Source: Gemmatimonadaceae bacterium
Lineage (GTDB): Bacteria > Gemmatimonadota > Gemmatimonadetes > Gemmatimonadales > Gemmatimonadaceae
Direction of reading: 5' to 3'
Length of the DNA stretch: 64,000 nucleotides
Assembly (NCBI GenBank): GCA_037721215.1
Contig: JBBJNV010000007.1
Span: forward strand, 62,001-126,000
How positions within the stretch are numbered: position 1 is the first letter of the stretch; every line of letters starts with the position of its first letter. Under the pieces are notes generated by a model. That model saw only the letters and a list, made by a program, of their open reading frames with translations. It was not told the origin of the DNA and ran no database searches. This document shows, piece after piece, positions 33,065 through 56,043 of this stretch. A program made the translations under genes and the position numbers.

Positions 33065-34228
33065 GTGAGAGTTCTCTTTCTCACCCATTCGTTCCCGCGC
33101 TTTGCCGGCGACGCGGCCGGTTCGTTTCTTCATCGGCTTGCCTCGGCCCTCCGCGACGAGAATGTCGACGTTCACGTCATCGCACCGGCGGCTCCGGGAC
33201 TGAAGGAGTCAGAATCCGTTGACGGCATTCCTGTAGAGCGGTTCCGTTACGCCCCTCACTCGCTCGAAACGCTCGCGTACACCGGCACTATGGCGCAGGA
33301 TGTGGCCGGTTCATGGACCGCGAGACTCGCGCTGCTCGGCTATATGGGCGCCGGTCTGGCGAAGTCGCTGGGCGCGCAGCGCCGATTTGCGCCTGACGTG
33401 ATTCATGCGCACTGGTGGTTCCCGTCAGGGGTACTTGGCGCAGCGGTTTCGCGATATTCGCGCGCGCCGCTGGTGACGACCATGCACGGCACCGATGTCC
33501 GGCTCGCACGGAGCATCCACGTTAGCCAGCCGTTGTTCCGTAACGTGATGCGCCGGTCATCGCGCGTGACAGTTGTGTCGAGCTGGCTGGCCGCGGAAGT
33601 CATCGCGATCGTGCCCGGTATCTCTCCCATTGTTGCGCCGATGCCCATTGCAGCCGAGAAGTTCAGTCCGGGCGGCTTGCGCAAGGTGAGTCGGTTTCTT
33701 TTTGTGGGCCGTCTCAACAGGCAAAAGGGATTGCAACACCTGTTGCACGCAATGGCGCGATTGGATGACAGCGTTGAGCTCGATGTTGTGGGGAACGGAC
33801 CGGACGATCGAGAGTTGAAAGCGTTAGCCGCAGCCAGCGGACTGCACGGCCGAATCACGTGGCACGGGCAACTGAACCAGAGCTTTCTGCAGGCACTTTA
33901 CCGGGCAGCTACAGCGCTCATCGTTCCTTCGATTGACGAGGGGCTCGGCCTGGTTGCCGCTGAAGCATTGATGTGCGAGACGCCGGTAATTGCATTCCGA
34001 TCTGGCGGGTTGACCGATGTTATCGAGCACGAGCGGACCGGGCTTTTAGCTTCCCCGGCTGACCTGGACGAGCTTGTTGCGGCGATGATGCGTATTCTGG
34101 CACGCCCGGCGGAGGCAATCGGTTTTGGGAAAGCGGGCAGGATTGCAGCCAGCGAGTTGTTCCTGCCAGCGCCCGCCGCGCGCCGGTACGCCGCCATCTA
34201 CCGCGATGCTGCCGGGCCGAAGTCTTGA
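33065..34228 (+). CDS. GT4-family glycosyltransferase
   Basis: Encodes 387 residues from a GTG start three bases after the previous stop. GT-B fold: the N-terminal RVLFLTHSFPRFAGDAAGSF, the middle HAHWWFPSG and TTMHGTDV near residues 115-143, FVGRLNRQKGLQHLL near 214, and the EX7E nucleotide-sugar motif in PSIDEGLGLVAAEALMCETPV near 288 (cut at 20). It is cytoplasmic with no membrane helices. It does not show the N-terminus expected of BshA, so it is more likely an exopolysaccharide or LPS-type transferase. The stop overlaps the next gene (TTGA). Confidence 0.85.
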   Translation: MRVLFLTHSFPRFAGDAAGSFLHRLASALRDENVDVHVIAPAAPGLKESESVDGIPVERFRYAPHSLETLAYTGTMAQDVAGSWTARLALLGYMGAGLAKSLGAQRRFAPDVIHAHWWFPSGVLGAAVSRYSRAPLVTTMHGTDVRLARSIHVSQPLFRNVMRRSSRVTVVSSWLAAEVIAIVPGISPIVAPMPIAAEKFSPGGLRKVSRFLFVGRLNRQKGLQHLLHAMARLDDSVELDVVGNGPDDRELKALAAASGLHGRITWHGQLNQSFLQALYRAATALIVPSIDEGLGLVAAEALMCETPVIAFRSGGLTDVIEHERTGLLASPADLDELVAAMMRILARPAEAIGFGKAGRIAASELFLPAPAARRYAAIYRDAAGPKS

Positions 34229-38330: not shown

Positions 38331-39232
38331 GCAGCGCGCCCCGCCTGGGCAAAGATGCTGATGTGAGCGGTCGCGATTTTTTCAAAATGAGTGGATCCGG
38401 GAATGATTTTGTGTTCCTGGAGGCCCGTCCGGGCAGCGTAGACGGACTCGAAACATCTGTTGCCGTGCGTGCGCTTTGTGCGCGCGGCACGGGCGTGGGC
38501 GCGGACGGCGTTGTATTTCTGCGGGGAAAGTCCAGCAACACTATCGCTATTCGCTACTACAACAGCGACGGCTCGCTCGGCGAACTGTGCGGGAATGCGA
38601 CGCTATGTGCCACGAGACTGGCACACGAGCAGGGGATGGTTGTCGGCGCTGAGCTCGCGATCGAGACGGACTCCGGGGTGGTGAACGCGCGCATGGTGGA
38701 TGGGCTGCCAGAGATCGACCTCGCCCCGGTCACCGAAGTGAACGGGATAGTTACGAGGATCGAACGCCGGCCGGCTGAATCAGCGATGGGATTTGCGCGG
38801 GCGGGCGTTCCCCATGTGGTAATCGTAGTGGACGATCTGGACGCCGTGGATGTGCGTGGACGGGGGTCGCAAATCCGGCGAGATTCTTCGCTTCGGGACG
38901 GTGCTAACGTGAATTTTGTCGCTTCGTCTCCGGGCGGCAGTTGGAGGATGAGAACCTACGAGCGCGGCGTTGAGGGAGAGACGCTCGCATGCGGCACTGG
39001 CGCTGTCGCCGCGGCTATTCTCCTCACCGAATGGGGAATGGCATCGTCACCTGTTACGCTCGAGACGCGCTCGGGGCGAATGCTCGCTGTGACGATACGC
39101 CGGGACGAAGGATCATGGTATCCGTCTCTTCGTGGAAGCGCCGATATCGTTTTCGCGGGACAGCTGCGGGAGGGATTCGAGACCAGCCGTACCCCGGGGT
39201 CACACACTTCAGACAGTGGAGATGCTGGATAA
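38327..39232 (+). CDS. dapF: Diaminopimelate epimerase
   Basis: Encodes 301 residues from ATG 38327. It converts LL- to meso-diaminopimelate for peptidoglycan and lysine. FFKMSGSGNDFVFLE opens the fold near residue 18. The two catalytic cysteines are C88 in ELCGNATLC and C222 in LACGTGAVAA. The first motif differs from the common CGNGxRC form (alanine-threonine-leucine in place of glycine-x-arginine). RYYNSDGS near residue 76 is intact. It is the last biosynthetic gene of the plus-strand run. Confidence 0.9.
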   Translation: MSSAPRLGKDADVSGRDFFKMSGSGNDFVFLEARPGSVDGLETSVAVRALCARGTGVGADGVVFLRGKSSNTIAIRYYNSDGSLGELCGNATLCATRLAHEQGMVVGAELAIETDSGVVNARMVDGLPEIDLAPVTEVNGIVTRIERRPAESAMGFARAGVPHVVIVVDDLDAVDVRGRGSQIRRDSSLRDGANVNFVASSPGGSWRMRTYERGVEGETLACGTGAVAAAILLTEWGMASSPVTLETRSGRMLAVTIRRDEGSWYPSLRGSADIVFAGQLREGFETSRTPGSHTSDSGDAG

Positions 39233-39735
39233 TGATCAACCAGACATTGCTGGGTGAGTTCGATCACGAGATGGAAAACACTCGCCGGATTCTTGAGCGG
39301 GTGCCGATGCATAATGCCTCCTGGAAACCCCATCCAAAGTCATTCAGCCTTGGCCAGCTGGCACTTCATGTCGCCGAGTTGCCTGGTTATGCAACAATGA
39401 CGATTACTCAGCCGGAGCTGGACTTCAATCCTGCAGGCGGAGCGAAGTTCGAGCGTGCGAAGGCGGATACGACGGAGGAGCTTGTCGCTGGCTTCGAGCG
39501 CAGCAGAACGGCTGCCAGGGAGGCGATCGAGGGGGCGTCGGACGCCACATTGATGGAGACGTGGGCGCTCAAGAACGGTGGCAATGTCATCTTCGCAATG
39601 CCAAGGATCGCGGTTCTGAGAGGTTTCGTGATGAACCATATGATCCACCATCGGGGTCAGTTAACCGTGTACCTGAGGCTGAACGACATTGCGTTGCCGG
39701 GTATCTACGGGCCGTCGGCCGACGAACCGATGTAG
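39232..39735 (+). CDS. DinB-family protein
   Basis: Encodes 167 residues from ATG 39232, sharing one base with the dapF stop; the frame is open through dapF but that part is a shadow. A four-helix bundle of the DinB/YfiT type is suggested by LLGEFDHEMENTRRIL, LGQLALHVAELPGY near residue 41 and MNHMIHHRGQLTVYL near 127, which supply the histidine metal ligands. Such proteins include thiol-dependent transferases, among them bacillithiol transferases; bshC lies elsewhere in this window. The substrate is unknown. Confidence 0.82.
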   Translation: MINQTLLGEFDHEMENTRRILERVPMHNASWKPHPKSFSLGQLALHVAELPGYATMTITQPELDFNPAGGAKFERAKADTTEELVAGFERSRTAAREAIEGASDATLMETWALKNGGNVIFAMPRIAVLRGFVMNHMIHHRGQLTVYLRLNDIALPGIYGPSADEPM

Positions 39736-48580: not shown

Positions 48581-50407
48581 TCATTGCACAGGAGCCGTGG
48601 CCGCAAGGGTTTCCAGCAGCTTGCGGGCCCGTTCCTCGGTAAACCCCAGCACCTTGGCGATCGTCTCCGGCCCCGCATCCCGAACGCCCTGGACGCTGCC
48701 GAATTCCTGAAGGAGGCGGCGGCGTTTCACGGGCCCGATGCCCGGCACTTCGAGCAACGCCGAAGTCACTGTCCGCATAGTTCGCCGCTTTCGGTTATAT
48801 GTGATCGCAAATCGATGCGCTTCGTCTCTGAGCTGCTGCAGCAGCCTCAACGCTGTCGATCTGCGAGACATTCGAATTGAATCCTGCCGTCCCCACACAA
48901 ATACTTCTTCCTCACGCTTCGCGAGACTGATGAGCGGCATGTCTCCGAGACCAAGCGGAACGAGGGCTTCGTGCGCCGCTGACAACTGGCCCTTGCCACC
49001 GTCAATAACAATCAGATCGGGCAAGGTTTTCTCGTCCGTGATTCGCCGCTGGAAGTAACGCGAGACGACTTCCCGCATCGACGCGAAGTCATCCGTTCCC
49101 TCCACAGTTTTCACTTTGAACTTTCGATACTCGGCGCGCTTTGCCCTTCCGTTTTCAAACCAGACCAGAGAGCCGACGGTGTCTGTACCCTGCGCTGTCG
49201 AAATGTCAAAGCATACCATTGCGCGAGGGAGCTTCTGCAACGATAGCTCCCGGCTCAACTCGTAGACCGGATCGGCAGCTCTGGTTCCCGCTTCGTGGTG
49301 GCTTGCGAGGCGCTGCTCTTCCAGGAGGTGTCTGGCATTCTGTTGGGCCAGGTCCACCAGCTCCCGGCGCGGGCCTCGCTGAGGAACATGCACCCGCGTT
49401 TCACCGAGCGTCTGTTCGAGCACCTCGCGGTCGTCAAAATCGAATGGTACGAGGAGATCGCGGGCACGCTCACGGAGGGGCACATAGGTGAGCGCCAGAT
49501 ACGCGGAGAGCGCGGTGGTATCCTCTTCCCCGTCGAGATTTTCCAGAAAGCGATGCTCCCGGGATAGCAGCTTCCCGGAACGGACCCTCAGCAGAGTGAC
49601 ACAAGCGTCGCCGGCGTCCCTGGCGTACCCGATGACATCACGGTCGCCGCCTTCGACCTCGAGCACCACGGTCGGCTCCTCCATCCTTTCAATATGCGCA
49701 AGTGCGTCGCGAAGCTCGCCGGCTCTTTCGAAATCAAGTGACTCCGCTGCGAGCTCCATCCGTTCGCGAACCCGCCGTACGACCTCCCCGGGCTTGCCGT
49801 CGAGGAAAAGAAGCACTTCATCGATCATCGAGCGGTATTCAGGCTGGCTTTGCGCAAGGATGCACGGCGCCTTGCACCTTTTTATGGAGTAGTCGAGACA
49901 CGGCCGCTCGGGCATTTCGCGCGGCATGTCATAGTTGCAGGAACGGACGGTAAAAATGCGCTTGACGACGTTGAGCGCCCGCCGCATCGAACCCACATCA
50001 GTGTACGGCCCAAAGTATCTGGCCCCGTCGTTCTGTAACTGGCGCGTGACGTACACCCTCGGGAAGCTTTCCTGAATCGTGACTTTTATGTACGGATACG
50101 ACTTGTCGTCACGAAGTGCGATGTTGAATCGCGGCCGGTATTCCTTGATCAGATTTGCTTCGAGGATCAACGCGTGGGCTTCAGTCGGGACGACGATCGT
50201 CTCCACGTCAGCAATCTGATTGACGAGGTGTCGCGTTTTTGGGCTGCCCACGTGATCAGAGCCGAAATAGCTTCGAACGCGCGAGCGAAGTTTCTTGGCC
50301 TTGCCCACGTACAACGTGGTTCCGTCTCCCGACTTCCAGAGGTACACGCCGGGGCCGTCAGGCAGGTGTGGCAGTTTCCTCGCGACGCTATCCGGGATCG
50401 ACCTCAT
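48581..50407 (-). CDS. uvrC: Excinuclease ABC subunit C
   Basis: Encodes 608 residues. The GIY-YIG nuclease (DGPGVYLWKSGDG, TLYVGKAKKLRSR) is at residues 17-45, the UVR/UvrB-binding helix lies near 205-235, the RNase H-like nuclease has CFDISTAQGTDTVGS near 395 and VIDGGKGQL near 470, and the paired HhH region ends in LLEVPGIGPVKRRRLL near 560. It makes both incisions in nucleotide excision repair. AAGG touches the ATG directly, so no spaced ribosome-binding site exists. It seems to be a single-gene unit. Confidence 0.96.
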   Translation of the reverse strand: MRSIPDSVARKLPHLPDGPGVYLWKSGDGTTLYVGKAKKLRSRVRSYFGSDHVGSPKTRHLVNQIADVETIVVPTEAHALILEANLIKEYRPRFNIALRDDKSYPYIKVTIQESFPRVYVTRQLQNDGARYFGPYTDVGSMRRALNVVKRIFTVRSCNYDMPREMPERPCLDYSIKRCKAPCILAQSQPEYRSMIDEVLLFLDGKPGEVVRRVRERMELAAESLDFERAGELRDALAHIERMEEPTVVLEVEGGDRDVIGYARDAGDACVTLLRVRSGKLLSREHRFLENLDGEEDTTALSAYLALTYVPLRERARDLLVPFDFDDREVLEQTLGETRVHVPQRGPRRELVDLAQQNARHLLEEQRLASHHEAGTRAADPVYELSRELSLQKLPRAMVCFDISTAQGTDTVGSLVWFENGRAKRAEYRKFKVKTVEGTDDFASMREVVSRYFQRRITDEKTLPDLIVIDGGKGQLSAAHEALVPLGLGDMPLISLAKREEEVFVWGRQDSIRMSRRSTALRLLQQLRDEAHRFAITYNRKRRTMRTVTSALLEVPGIGPVKRRRLLQEFGSVQGVRDAGPETIAKVLGFTEERARKLLETLAATAPVQ

Positions 50408-50451: not shown

Positions 50452-52020
50452 CTACAGCTTGCGGCGGATTCGCCCGGTAAGTGACACTGCCTCAGGTACA
50501 CCTATGAGGGTAGTGATCAACAGATAGGAAAGGCCATAGGATGTAAGAATCACGAGTGCTATCCATACCGTGTGGCGGCCGTCCAGGCCGAGCTTGAAGC
50601 CCCATCCGATGGCGGCGGACGCGAGGGCTGCCAGCCAGAGTTTTATCGTGAATGCGGCCGGTATGGACGTTTTTCCAATCCGCCTGGTCATCTCCCGGCG
50701 GAGAAGATAGAATTCGGCCCAGCCGGATATGCCGGACGCCGCCGTGAGGAAGGCGACCCCCCAGCGCGGATTCAGTCCAAGCCATCCTGGAAGGTAAAGG
50801 GCAGCGATGTATCCAAGCACGCAATTGAGAGTCACCCGAACAACCGCGTACCGAAGCGGCGTGCGTGTATCCCGCAAAGCATAAAAGGTCGATGAGTAAA
50901 GGCGGCCCCAGGTTGAAGCAAGCAGGCCGATTGTCGATCCGGCAAGAATCTGCCATATCCAGACGCTGTCGCTGCGCGTGAACCGCCCCGACTCGTAAAG
51001 CGCTGCCGAGACGACGTCGCCGAGGGCGAGAAAAGCTATCACGGACGGGATTATGAAAAACGCAATTCGCTCGAGGCCACCATCGAGTCTGCCGCGAAGA
51101 TACGTCGAAATTTCCTCCATGGTCCCGGTGGCGCTCGCCATCATTGGAAGCTCTGCCGCTGACACTGCCATGCCGAAGAGGCTGACCGGAAGGGTGTAAA
51201 GCACCTGTGCATAAGCGAGGGTAGCGACCGCGCCCGTCGGCAGCCAGCTCGCAATGAAGGAATCGATGAACGCGGATATCTGCACGACGCCACGTCCCAC
51301 GAAGGTCGGCAGAAATGTGCGAGACACGTTTTGGAAGCTCTCACTTCGAAAGTTCAGGCTGGGCCGAAGTCGTCTTACCAGTCTGAGAACGAACGGAATC
51401 TGAACGCCGAACTGCAAAGCGCTTCCCACCACCGACGCCCAGGCAAGGATCTGGGCGAGACGCGGCAGCGCGGTTCCGGCGCCGTACCAGAGCAGCGTCC
51501 CGATCATCACCAGATTCCACATTACCGGAGCTGTATAGCTCACGAAAAACCTGCGATGGCTGTTGAGAATTCCCAGACACCACGCAGAAAACACGAGCAA
51601 CCCCGCCCCGGGGAAAAAAATCCTCGTCAATTGAACAGTGAGCTCGCGCTTTTCGCCGCTGAAGCCGGGGGCGATTGTACCGACGAGGGCCGGCGCTAGC
51701 AGCACTCCTGTCAGAACAAGGACAGCCGAAACGAGCGCCAGAGCTGCGATCACAGTTCCGGCCAGCCTGCCCGCCTCTTCTTCCTTCTCGCGTGCTATCA
51801 GCCCTGCATACTCCGGAATGAAGGACGCCGACAGCACACCTTCGCCAAACATATTCTGGAGAAAATTCGGTATCCTGAAGGCCGCATTGAATGCATCGGC
51901 GGCGATCGACGTACCGAAGTAGTAGGCAAAGACTTTTTGACGGACGAGGCCGGCAATACGGCTCAGAAAAATGCCTGCGCCGACGAGAAACGCAGCGCTG
52001 CGGGATCGGTCGGCGCTCAT
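50452..52020 (-). CDS. murJ: Lipid II flippase MurJ
   Basis: Encodes 522 residues with about 14 membrane helices. The family motifs SRIAGLVRQKVFAYYFG near residue 20, DAFNAAFRIPNFLQNMFGEG near 42, and ASFIPEYAG near 64 are clear. It flips lipid II for peptidoglycan assembly. ATG overlaps the bshC stop by four bases. Last gene of the 52-64 kb superoperon; uvrC follows 44 bp later with its own -10 box. Confidence 0.95.
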   Translation of the reverse strand: MSADRSRSAAFLVGAGIFLSRIAGLVRQKVFAYYFGTSIAADAFNAAFRIPNFLQNMFGEGVLSASFIPEYAGLIAREKEEEAGRLAGTVIAALALVSAVLVLTGVLLAPALVGTIAPGFSGEKRELTVQLTRIFFPGAGLLVFSAWCLGILNSHRRFFVSYTAPVMWNLVMIGTLLWYGAGTALPRLAQILAWASVVGSALQFGVQIPFVLRLVRRLRPSLNFRSESFQNVSRTFLPTFVGRGVVQISAFIDSFIASWLPTGAVATLAYAQVLYTLPVSLFGMAVSAAELPMMASATGTMEEISTYLRGRLDGGLERIAFFIIPSVIAFLALGDVVSAALYESGRFTRSDSVWIWQILAGSTIGLLASTWGRLYSSTFYALRDTRTPLRYAVVRVTLNCVLGYIAALYLPGWLGLNPRWGVAFLTAASGISGWAEFYLLRREMTRRIGKTSIPAAFTIKLWLAALASAAIGWGFKLGLDGRHTVWIALVILTSYGLSYLLITTLIGVPEAVSLTGRIRRKL

Positions 52021-53549
52021 GCCAGAGCGATCGCGTGCGGCTCGATCTCCCGCATTACCTCATGAATCAGTGTCTCCCCGTGCCGCGCGAGCAGCGGGAC
52101 GATGTTGAGTGATCGCTCCTGAACAGCGTCGAGTGGAAAAAGTGCAGCCCTGGCCGAGGCAACGTCGGTCAGATCGGCATTGCCACGTCGTTTTACGGCG
52201 GCGGCATACCGGCGCTCGAGTCGATCGATCTGTCGCGCAACGTTGTGCCTGAGCCCCTGGACAACCCGCGACGGTACCAGCCCTGACCCTTCAGCGGCAA
52301 CGATCGCATCGGCAGCTGATTGTATGGACTCCCTTATATTATCCAGGCTGCTCCTGAGCTCTGGTGGCAGCGACGCGCGCGCCATTTTTGTTGTCGCCGC
52401 GTGCGGGTCGCGCAGATCATCGATCGACAGGCCATGTTTTTCGAGAATGCGATCTATCCGTGGCTCGACGACCATCCCGGCCCATCGGGGAACGACGAGC
52501 GGTACCGGAGTATCCAGTGCCTCTGCAACCGCGGATATCTGAGCGAAGTAGGCGATCTCCGCCGGTCCGCCTACATACGCAACTGTCGGGATGATGGAGC
52601 GCTCGACGATAGGCCTCAGCAGTACGTTGGGTCCGAGATTGCGCAGGTCTGTTGCCGTGGCCGCGGCGTCTGCCGCGCGTGTCGTCACGCGGTTCCGGTT
52701 GCCATCCTTCTCTCGGAACACCAGGCTCCTGCCCTTTACCTGCCTGACTTGAACCGAGTGTCCAGCAGAAGTCAGTTCAGCAGTCCGTGATTCCAGCGCT
52801 GATTCCACTGCGGTCGCCAGTCTCAATGCATCACGAACCACCGGCAAGGCAGCGGCTTTTGTTGCAGGGTGAGAAGCATCGACGACTGCGATTCCCAACG
52901 GGCTGAGGATCGACCTCAGCAGTGATAAATATGCGCCCCCAAGGGTCTGCGCCGGCGAATAGGCGCGACGTACGATGTCGAGAATGCCCGCGTGCGGTGC
53001 TGAGCCTGATGCGCTCGCCAGTTGGGCGAGCTGCTCGCTGACATCCCCGAGGGGCATCTCGCTGAGGGTGCTCCCGGTTTCAGGGAGCGTGTCGATGCCA
53101 ATTCTGAAAGCATGGTCGTGCAATGCAACGGCTGTCGACGCTGCCTCGAGGAAATCCGAGTCATCGGTTCCTGCCCAGAATATCGGAACGATCGCGCGGC
53201 CAGTCAGCGATTCGAGGTGATCGGCAAGAGCCAGGGCGGAGAGCGCCTTCCACCAGGTATACAGCGGCCCTCCGAACAGACCCGGCTGTTGTCCGGTCGT
53301 TACCGCAAACCCTGATTCCGCGGCGCGCTCGAGCCTTTGTGCAGCGACGCCTGTTGCACTCATCGCCGGCGCGATCGCCGATAGCCAGTCTCTGCCGACC
53401 AGCGACGCCCGCATCTCCTCGCCACGCCGTGTCCACTCGCGAGCGCCCGACGGACGCCTCACGTACCATTCGCTCACACCAACGCCGCTGATGGCCGGCT
53501 CTGTAAGCAACGTTCCGCGCAAGGGAGTGGAGACGACCCGGACACTCAC
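52017..53549 (-). CDS. bshC: BshC, putative bacillithiol synthase (cysteine-adding enzyme)
   Basis: Encodes 510 residues. The signature FAVTTGQQPGLFGGPLYTWWK (residues 80-100; core TGQQPGLFGGPLYT) and IPIFWAGTDDSDFLE-like VPIFWAGTDDSDF near 119 are typical of BshC, which adds cysteine to glucosaminyl-malate. A coiled region lies near 430-460. bshA and bshB are not in the window. ATG overlaps the stop of an upstream methyltransferase (ATGA), suggesting a shared thiol pathway. Confidence 0.92.
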   Translation of the reverse strand: MSVRVVSTPLRGTLLTEPAISGVGVSEWYVRRPSGAREWTRRGEEMRASLVGRDWLSAIAPAMSATGVAAQRLERAAESGFAVTTGQQPGLFGGPLYTWWKALSALALADHLESLTGRAIVPIFWAGTDDSDFLEAASTAVALHDHAFRIGIDTLPETGSTLSEMPLGDVSEQLAQLASASGSAPHAGILDIVRRAYSPAQTLGGAYLSLLRSILSPLGIAVVDASHPATKAAALPVVRDALRLATAVESALESRTAELTSAGHSVQVRQVKGRSLVFREKDGNRNRVTTRAADAAATATDLRNLGPNVLLRPIVERSIIPTVAYVGGPAEIAYFAQISAVAEALDTPVPLVVPRWAGMVVEPRIDRILEKHGLSIDDLRDPHAATTKMARASLPPELRSSLDNIRESIQSAADAIVAAEGSGLVPSRVVQGLRHNVARQIDRLERRYAAAVKRRGNADLTDVASARAALFPLDAVQERSLNIVPLLARHGETLIHEVMREIEPHAIALA

Positions 53550-54265
53550 TGGCGTTTACCGAAAATGATCACGCGTGGCGAATGACGCTGTAGCGGCGCG
53601 GCCATGTAGTCGCCATGACAACCGGTCACTTCGAAACCGGAGTCTGTCATCATGCGCGTCAGTTCTTCCGGCGTGAAAAGCCTGACGCGCTCTACGAATT
53701 TCCGCGCTTCGCCGCGGATTCTGATTGTCTTGACGACATAGCGCCCATCGTCGGTGATCTCCCTCGTCTGCTCGACGATCTTCCCATCGATGACTCGCTC
53801 ATCATATGGCACCAGATTGGTACGCACGCGCCCGGCGTTCAGAAAATCGATGACGAACGTACCGCCGTCGGCCGTCACTCTCGCTACTTCATCGAATACG
53901 AGACGGTGTTCCGCATCGGTCTCGAAATAACCGAAGCTGGTGAACAGATTGACGACGAGGTCGAAAGCACCGTTTGCAAACGGGAGAACCCGCATGTCCC
54001 CCCGTACGAACGAAGCGGGTGATTCTTCCTGTTTCGCAAGCCTCAGCAGAACTTCGGAAAGGTCGATGCCGAGGGTCCACCACCGGTCGGCAAGGGAGCG
54101 TGCGTGCCGTCCCGCGCCACACGCAACGTCCAATACCCGGTCTACCTCACGGCCGGCGACCGAGCGTTCGATGAGCTCGATTGCGTGCTCCGCTTCGGCT
54201 TCATCCCGATGCGGGTACAGCGCCACATAGTCCTCGCCGAACCATGATTCGAACCACTCAGACAT
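53546..54265 (-). CDS. SAM-dependent methyltransferase, candidate bacillithiol N-methyltransferase
   Basis: Encodes 239 residues, class I fold. Motif I is VLDVACGAGRHARSLAD near residue 43, the acidic loop GIDLSEVLL near 66, and FDLVVNLFTSFGYFE near 102, followed by the strand region FVIDFLNAGRVRTN. It resembles small-molecule methyltransferases. It overlaps bshC by four bases. In Chlorobium a methyltransferase (NmbA) makes N-methyl-bacillithiol, so the same role is a reasonable inference here; direct homology could not be tested. Confidence 0.8.
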   Translation of the reverse strand: MSEWFESWFGEDYVALYPHRDEAEAEHAIELIERSVAGREVDRVLDVACGAGRHARSLADRWWTLGIDLSEVLLRLAKQEESPASFVRGDMRVLPFANGAFDLVVNLFTSFGYFETDAEHRLVFDEVARVTADGGTFVIDFLNAGRVRTNLVPYDERVIDGKIVEQTREITDDGRYVVKTIRIRGEARKFVERVRLFTPEELTRMMTDSGFEVTGCHGDYMAAPLQRHSPRVIIFGKRQ

Positions 54266-54274
54266 CCGCGGCGT

Positions 54275-54736
54275 TCACTTGTGGTAAGGTTCTCCCCTGA
54301 TGATCGATCCTGCGCGATACAGCTGTTCGGCAAGGACCAGCCGCGCCAGTTCGTGCGCAAGCGTCCATGGCGCAAGCGACAACTTCGAGACCGACCGGCT
54401 GACCAGCGTATCCGGCAGCCCGAACGCGCCGCCGATTACGAAACCGATATCGCGCTCGGATTGGCGCTCGTTCATCAGCCATGAGGCGAAGGCTTCTGAC
54501 GTCATCGGTTGTCCGGCCGCATCGCATGCGACGACCCTGGTACCTGCAACGCGTTCCGCGAGCCGCTTTCCTTCGCGCTCGCGAACGACATCGGGTGAAA
54601 TTCCTGCCGCGCGCTCCTCCCGGACCTCATGGAATTCAAGCGGCCAATACCGCGCCGCCCGAGTTTCATATTCGTGAATCGCGGTCCCAAGGGCCGCATT
54701 TCGCGGTTTCCCAACCACCGCAACGACCATCCGCAT
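54275..54736 (-). CDS. rlmH: 23S rRNA pseudouridine-1915 N3-methyltransferase
   Basis: Encodes 153 residues, the usual RlmH length. The frame is open upstream, but ATG 54736 (TGATG overlap with the gdhA stop) gives the family N-terminus. SPOUT-fold features are FVIGGAFGLPD near residue 102 and the C-terminus SLAPWTLAHELARLVLAEQL followed by YRAGSIIRGEPYHK. It methylates pseudouridine 1915 in helix 69 of 23S rRNA. Confidence 0.96.
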   Translation of the reverse strand: MRMVVAVVGKPRNAALGTAIHEYETRAARYWPLEFHEVREERAAGISPDVVREREGKRLAERVAGTRVVACDAAGQPMTSEAFASWLMNERQSERDIGFVIGGAFGLPDTLVSRSVSKLSLAPWTLAHELARLVLAEQLYRAGSIIRGEPYHK

Positions 54737-56043
54737 CAGGCGTATACGCCACGCAACCGGTGTACAGTCGCGACCCGATTGATGGCAAGCATATAAGCAG
54801 CCGTGCGCATGTTCACCCGATGCTCCTTCGACAAGTCCAGGACTGCCTGAAAACTGTTGACCATGATATCCCCGAGACGGTCGTTGACCAGCTGTTCCGT
54901 CCAGAAATACCCACCTCGGTCCTGCACCCACTCGAAGTATGATACCGTCACGCCGCCGGCATTGGCGAGGATGTCCGGGATCACGAAAACGCCGTTCTCT
55001 TCGAGAATGGAATCCGCGCCGGCGGTCGTCGGCCCGTTCGCGCCTTCGCAGATTATCCGGGCACGGATGCCGCCGGCGTTCTTTGCAGTGATCACATTCT
55101 CGAGCGCGGCGGGCAGCAGCACGTCGACATCGAGGGCGAGCAGGTCAGCCCCGCTGATCGTCTCGCCCCTGCCATAACCCTCGAGTGTGCGGTGAATGGC
55201 CGTGTAGGCGATCGCGTCGTCGATGTCGATTCCATTCGCATCGTGAATGGCAACTGAGCGATCGCTTATTGCGACTATCCTGCAGCCCTCTCGCTGCAGC
55301 AATTTTGCCGCGACCGAGCCGACGTTGCCGAATCCCTGGACAGCTACCGTCGTCCCGGCTATCGGCATGCCGAGATGCTCGAGCGCCTGCCTGGTGACGA
55401 TCATGCACCCCCGGCCCGTCGCCTCCCGCCGTCCCAGGGAGCCACCCATCTCCACTGGCTTGCCGGTCACAACAGCCGTGACCGTATGACCGACATGCAT
55501 GGAATATGTATCCATGATCCATGCCATGACCCGCTCGTTGGTATTGACGTCCGGAGCAGGAACATCCGAGTCCGGCCCGAGCACCTGAATGATGCCGGCC
55601 GTGTAGCGCCGCGTGAGGCGCTCCAGCTCCGCAATGCTCATCGTGTCCGGATCGCACACGACACCACCCTTCGCGCCGCCAAAAGGAATGTTTACCACCG
55701 CGCACTTCCAGGTCATCCAGGCGGCGAGCGCTTTCACCTCTTCAAGCGTCACCTGCCTGTCGAACCGGATGCCGCCCTTGGCCGGTCCGCGAGACGTGTT
55801 GTAAAGAACCCGGTAGCCTGTGAAAACCTCCACTTCACCATTGTCCATCATGACCGGAACCGAGACAATGATCTGTTTTTCAGGGTGCCTCAGAACGCGA
55901 TAGAGCCCGGGCTCGAGGTTGAGCAGTTCCGCCGCCTTGTCGAACCGGAGCATCATCGCTTCGAACGGATTCTCCTCATTGAGAAACGTTTCCTTGTCGG
56001 GTCCTACAATCGTTCTCGTGGGTGTGCGGCGATCAATGAGCAT
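54736..56043 (-). CDS. gdhA: Glutamate dehydrogenase (Glu/Leu/Phe/Val family)
   Basis: Encodes 435 residues. The dinucleotide fold has [17 protein letters not shown] near residue 215; substrate lysines lie in PAKGGIRFD near 90 and [19 protein letters not shown] near 108-126. It interconverts glutamate and 2-oxoglutarate/ammonia. It lies 25 bp after lpxK without a clear promoter or Shine-Dalgarno site, so it may be part of the envelope superoperon. Cofactor preference is not determined. Confidence 0.93.

Follow-up and report, generated by a model that had tools for sequence, protein, structure and literature searches.

A 64,000-nucleotide stretch of a Gemmatimonadaceae genome (contig JBBJNV010000007.1, positions 62,001 to 126,000 of the forward strand; this whole stretch is referred to as the window, and coordinates are counted from its first letter) carries on its minus strand a gene for a class I S-adenosylmethionine (SAM) methyltransferase (53546–54265; 239 amino acids, ATG start, TGA stop; Pfam Methyltransf_25, 65 bits). 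It lies directly upstream of bshC (52017–53549, minus strand; 510 amino acids, GTG start), which codes for the enzyme that adds cysteine in the last step of bacillithiol (BSH) synthesis. We identify the methyltransferase gene as nmbA, encoding a predicted SAM-dependent bacillithiol N-methyltransferase orthologous to NmbA of Chlorobaculum tepidum. From sequence comparison we put at about 0.88 the probability that its product N-methylates BSH, that the resulting N-methyl-bacillithiol is a working low-molecular-weight thiol, and that the gene is coupled to bshC. In the proposed mechanism BshA, BshB1 and BshC would make BSH, the substrate of NmbA, and NmbA would use SAM to methylate the nitrogen of its cysteine; the N-methyl-bacillithiol so formed would serve as the cell's working low-molecular-weight thiol, and coupling of nmbA to bshC would match the enzyme that completes BSH with the one that methylates it.

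An initial annotation of the window had proposed such a pathway from a methyltransferase and a bshC gene at 52017–54265, and both genes are present; BshC passes the curated TIGR03998 cut-off (273.5 against 265.8 bits), with matches also to PF10079 and PF24850. The pathway was searched for in this one genome (45 contigs, 96.6% complete), which holds bshA, bshB and bshC, all above curated cut-offs (BshA, encoded on contig 35, TIGR03999, 536.6 bits, cut-off 273.7; BshB1, TIGR04001, 232.3 bits, cut-off 182.5). A YpdA-type reductase for bacillithiol disulfide (380 bits against 339.9) and a bacilliredoxin of the BrxA/BrxB type (205 bits against 100) likewise pass their cut-offs. The window also contains a BshA-like glycosyltransferase gene (33395–34210, plus strand), which scores 110 bits against the BshA cut-off of 273.7; the real bshA is the one on contig 35.

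Identity of the window methyltransferase

Among all PDB sequences the best match of the window protein is C. tepidum NmbA (CtNmbA; CT1040, 9RI2) at 1.4e-37, with the next at 2.4e-19. When CtNmbA residues 15–259 are compared with the window's own genome, the window gene comes first (1.5e-37, 39% identity) and a gene on contig 24 second (8.0e-20, 30%). The reverse search used the Chlorobiales genome of locus L038, which has an NmbA sharing 95% identity with CtNmbA and stands in for C. tepidum, and here the nmbA locus is again first (1.1e-39; next 7.2e-12). The window protein is thus an NmbA by the definition of PMC6282198, a bidirectional best hit with CT1040 at E below 1e-30, albeit with different databases, and it also lies within the thresholds of PMC12719100 (E 1e-20, coverage above 80%, identity above 25%, similar length), with 1.4e-37 in another database, residues 3–236 of 239 aligned and 39% identity over 231. 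Matches to NCBIfam models are all below their cut-offs, the best being a daptide methyltransferase (54.2 bits against 175), and therefore no other named equivalog fits.

Activity on BSH has been published for CtNmbA and for a Paenibacillus NmbA (PMC12719100). The window protein resembles CtNmbA as a member of the same family over its whole length, in its motif I (VLDVACGAG, given as VLDIAxGxG in PMC12719100), in its signature residues and in residing in a genome with bshA, bshB and bshC; it differs in having 27 fewer residues than the crystallised protein of 266. For Paenibacillus we used the P. cellulosilyticus homologue, from a plasmid record, whereas the proven enzyme is PpNmbA; this homologue is 40% identical to the window protein over 99%, and we found no bsh genes within 4 kb of it.

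We derived a signature from 38 reference sequences that lack a link to bshC (CtNmbA together with sequences from Chlorobiota, Bacteroidota, Ignavibacteriota and some other groups); it consists of the 39 positions at which conservation in this set reaches 90% or more. The reference sequences were fetched by patterns on two motifs, so the signature columns inside these motifs favour the reference set; eight of the 137 rows were exact duplicates and were left out. The window protein keeps 37 of the 39 positions, as does the P. cellulosilyticus homologue, and 49 window-type sequences keep 34–39; nearly all of these are from Gemmatimonadota and linked to bshC, with two (L013, L079) cut before bshC and one (L088) without a phylum. 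Similar values are seen for bshC-linked sequences from other phyla (34–36, n = 5) and for a separate set of Holophagaceae and KSB1 rows (35–37, n = 6). Paralogues linked to mutase genes, which are discussed below, keep 24–26 (n = 18), further relatives 24–30 (n = 8), and five other methyltransferases of the same genome 10–20. Three residues, R20, K179 and E192 (R33, K198 and E214 of CtNmbA), are invariant in the reference, window-type and other-phylum bshC-linked sets and are also carried by the Paenibacillus homologue; each is absent from all 18 mutase-linked paralogues and all eight further relatives, and they occur in 0, 0 and 1 of the five other methyltransferases, respectively. We infer that these residues may hold the substrate. 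The NmbA identity suggested by the initial annotation is thus supported by the closest PDB relative, by the reciprocal best hits and by the signature.

A mutase-linked paralogue

The contig-24 gene encodes a second full-length NmbA-like protein (G000 C24:74268–75005, equivalent to L002:1501–2241) that is 34% identical to the window protein and is flanked by the two halves of methylmalonyl-CoA mutase, one catalytic and one B12-binding. Both mutase halves flank the gene in 13 of 17 further members and at least one half is seen in all 17, and the paralogue occurs in numerous genomes of the family. It raises the alternative that the paralogue is the true BSH methylase and the window gene an NmbA-like methyltransferase for another small amine. 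The paralogue is 30–32% identical to CtNmbA, and its best PDB match is likewise 9RI2 (2e-20). However, its match to CtNmbA is far weaker than that of the window protein (8.0e-20 against 1.5e-37), it keeps 25 signature positions as opposed to 37, has none of the three diagnostic residues (R, K and E), and is placed within a mutase context, away from the bsh genes, where the window gene adjoins bshC. We consider this alternative very unlikely. At 30–32% identity to CtNmbA the paralogue could nonetheless pass lenient NmbA thresholds, such that similarity searches of this kind in Gemmatimonadota could count it as NmbA, and it is advisable to use signature residues or bshC linkage in addition.

Phylogenetic trees bear on the same question. 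A first tree, built in quick mode, had 104 rows (103 plus CtNmbA); of 138 methyltransferase open reading frame hits, 33 loci that were redundant and two side hits that were weak had been omitted. Of the five long outgroup rows, all taken from the window's own genome, two were placed in the ingroup, and we rebuilt the tree without all five. In the resulting careful tree of 78 rows, from which 26 more rows including the five outgroups were omitted, the window family groups with CtNmbA, and the mutase-linked family together with seven other rows lies opposite (bootstrap/Shimodaira–Hasegawa-like approximate likelihood ratio test, 92/93); adding the Paenibacillus row (79 rows) gives the same split (84/94). 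The window family is placed on the NmbA side in both trees, although the rival grouping considered below is not rejected; placement with a clearly different family is the outcome that the initial annotation had named as speaking against its proposal. A relative of this methyltransferase family on a contig titled Euryarchaeota (L107:716–1615) forms the sister lineage of the mutase-linked sequences (99/90, 78-row tree).

Several observations weigh against identifying the window gene as nmbA. The protein is only about 39% identical to CtNmbA, and both values for the split between NmbA and the outgroup fall short of starred support. In addition, a single clade of the bshC-linked and mutase-linked sequences, as the paralogue alternative would favour, is not rejected by the approximately unbiased (AU) test (p = 0.116, 15.7 log units worse). 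The constraint comprised 33 bshC-linked rows (without L077 and L106), three rows that fell among them (L071, L101, L110) and nine mutase-linked rows, a grouping named only after the tree was seen. Because the AU test does not reject this rival clade, the support of the tree for orthology is short of proof, and we say only that the tree agrees with it. An AlphaFold2 model of the window protein (20 aligned sequences; mean predicted local distance difference test score 91.8) was compared with known structures using Foldseek; by the combined sequence and structure score 9RI2 comes first, with a poor root-mean-square deviation of 8.4, and by structure alone its Z of 24.9 puts it at rank 10 among 50, where the top match has 26.6. 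In the crystal the Cap domain forms a tight basket, and this is where AlphaFold models of NmbA depart from it, with misplaced Cap strands (PMC12719100); the fold comparison therefore argues neither for nor against NmbA.

Pairing of nmbA with bshC

Within 61 close genomes (the window's own included; counts tallied by eye), nmbA is found in 34 at E below 1e-60, with a bshC match directly downstream on the same strand in 33; in the remaining one (G018) a contig end cuts the locus. Another 25 have bshC without nmbA, and two have neither. Across 298 Gemmatimonadota genomes nmbA is present in 116, bshC in 286, both in 115 and bshC alone in 171; a 117th nmbA match (G105; 8.4e-33, 36%) was excluded as probably of the paralogue type. 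Both coordinates are among the matches listed for 97 of these genomes, and in 96 of them nmbA adjoins bshC on one strand and directly upstream, the single exception (G220) having the two genes on different contigs. The other 19 of the 116 consist of 18 without both coordinates among the matches listed and one (G067) without a bshC match. The whole block gdh-rlmH-nmbA-bshC-murJ-uvrC is conserved in many Gemmatimonadota, and in all five fetched loci that lack nmbA (L148–L152) bshC comes immediately after rlmH and before murJ, so that the surrounding gene order stays the same whether or not nmbA is there.

The conservation of this block allows a second alternative, in which the methyltransferase stands next to bshC as a relic of a fixed order of genes and has no part in thiol metabolism, its substrate being, for instance, RNA or a lipid precursor, as for its neighbours rlmH and murJ. 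We scanned named loci for the best 80 of 412 matches, and the phyla represented are thus no census. Twenty-eight of these 80 loci also hold bshC: 22 of 23 from Gemmatimonadota, the 23rd (L079) being cut shortly after nmbA, and six of the other 57. The six are from Lentisphaerota (L077), Fibrobacterota (L091 and L102), Planctomycetota (L106) and Acidobacteriota (L096), together with L088, whose title gives no phylum, yet which has rlmH upstream; the bshC-linked loci from other phyla are metagenome-assembled genomes. Adjacency of nmbA and bshC therefore recurs in up to four phyla beyond Gemmatimonadota, of which Acidobacteriota is a weak case because bshC of L096 is partial and matches no NCBIfam model at 1e-30. 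The order nmbA-bshC-bshB-bshA is seen in three loci (L077:886–4949, L091:4932–9539 and L106:4980–9153), with BshB1 and BshA above their curated cut-offs and BshC at 203–242 bits, below its cut-off of 265.8; these are apparently complete N-methyl-bacillithiol gene clusters. In contrast to the pairing in the window, none of 11 Chlorobiales/Chlorobiaceae loci (L038–L048) shows bshC within up to 5 kb on each side.

A relic of gene order would also accord with the four-base overlaps at several junctions of the locus, described below. In other phyla, however, the methyltransferase pairs with bshC while rlmH and murJ were not found in the stretch searched, and in three loci bshB and bshA join the pair; all but one of the 116 Gemmatimonadota genomes with the methyltransferase have bshC, and its closest proven relative acts on BSH. 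We therefore regard a role outside thiol metabolism as very unlikely. Methylation of cysteine or another precursor before BshC, which would then join N-methylcysteine to GlcN-Mal, would give the same final product and would suit the tight link to the cysteine-adding enzyme, but is extremely improbable, given that CtNmbA uses free BSH as a methylation substrate in vitro (PMC12719100) and that in C. tepidum N-methylcysteine was never seen and an nmbA mutant accumulates BSH (PMC6282198).

The locus and its implications

The window pair is part of a co-directional minus-strand run, lpxB - DUF374 - lpxK - gdh - rlmH - nmbA - bshC - murJ - uvrC - radical-SAM/DUF512. Its conserved neighbours are rlmH (54275–54736; 23S rRNA pseudouridine methyltransferase, PF02590, 137 bits), nine bases upstream of nmbA, and murJ (50452–52020; lipid II flippase, PF03023), downstream of bshC; beyond them lie a gdh-like Glu/Leu/Phe/Val dehydrogenase gene (54736–56043; PF00208 and PF02812) and uvrC (48581–50407; PF08459), conserved but outside the pathway. 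The four-base overlap of nmbA and bshC reported in the initial annotation is correctly positioned at 53546–53549, but reads GTGA rather than ATGA, in keeping with the GTG start of bshC; an ATGA is shared by bshC and murJ at 52017–52020. The nmbA/bshC overlap alone is weak evidence for coupling, because four-base overlaps occur at four of nine inspected junctions of the run and because any TGA preceded by A, G or T supplies a start codon in the overlapping frame; of 51 homologous nmbA/bshC pairs that are not identical, 40 allow a start at −4. What goes beyond chance at this locus is the conservation of the gene pair rather than the overlap, through which translation of the two genes may be coupled.

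The initial annotation also drew attention to a DinB-fold protein (39232–39735, plus strand), a fold that includes bacillithiol transferases. The protein is real (PF05163, 37.3 bits, cut-off 23), but adds little because no NCBIfam model matches it, and the proposed link has only superfamily-level Pfam matches. It also has a marginal match to the mycothiol S-transferase family PF04978 (28.0 bits, cut-off 27).

The occurrence of NmbA in Gemmatimonadota was already stated in 2025 (PMC12719100). We did not find the nmbA-bshC linkage, the four-gene clusters, the presence or absence of nmbA at a fixed locus, or the look-alike paralogue in the papers and passages searched. The words operon, neighbo- and adjacent are absent from the main texts of PMC12719100, PMC6282198 and PMC6336425, "gene cluster" from that of PMC12719100 and "cluster" from that of PMC6282198, with one instance in PMC6336425 on other genes; "paralog" is absent from the main texts of PMC12719100 and PMC6282198, and passages of PMC6336425, PMC11406998, PMC7278568 and PMC2922099 contain nothing on the linkage.

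The kind of enzyme encoded here is already known, and it is the fixed gene pairing that eases study of what methylation does; the function of bacillithiol N-methylation is given as unknown in PMC6282198. Pairing with bshC in several phyla provides independent genomic support for the role of NmbA beyond the species tested. If the proposed coupling to bshC is true, then essentially the whole BSH pool would be methylated as it is made. We tentatively suggest, at somewhat less than even odds, that nmbA of Gemmatimonadota is a fourth pathway gene that can be switched in or out of a locus that is fixed in other respects, rlmH-[nmbA]-bshC-murJ, giving a natural set of genomes with N-methyl-bacillithiol or plain bacillithiol. 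The fixed locus with and without nmbA would thus offer related genomes in which the effect of methylation can be tested.

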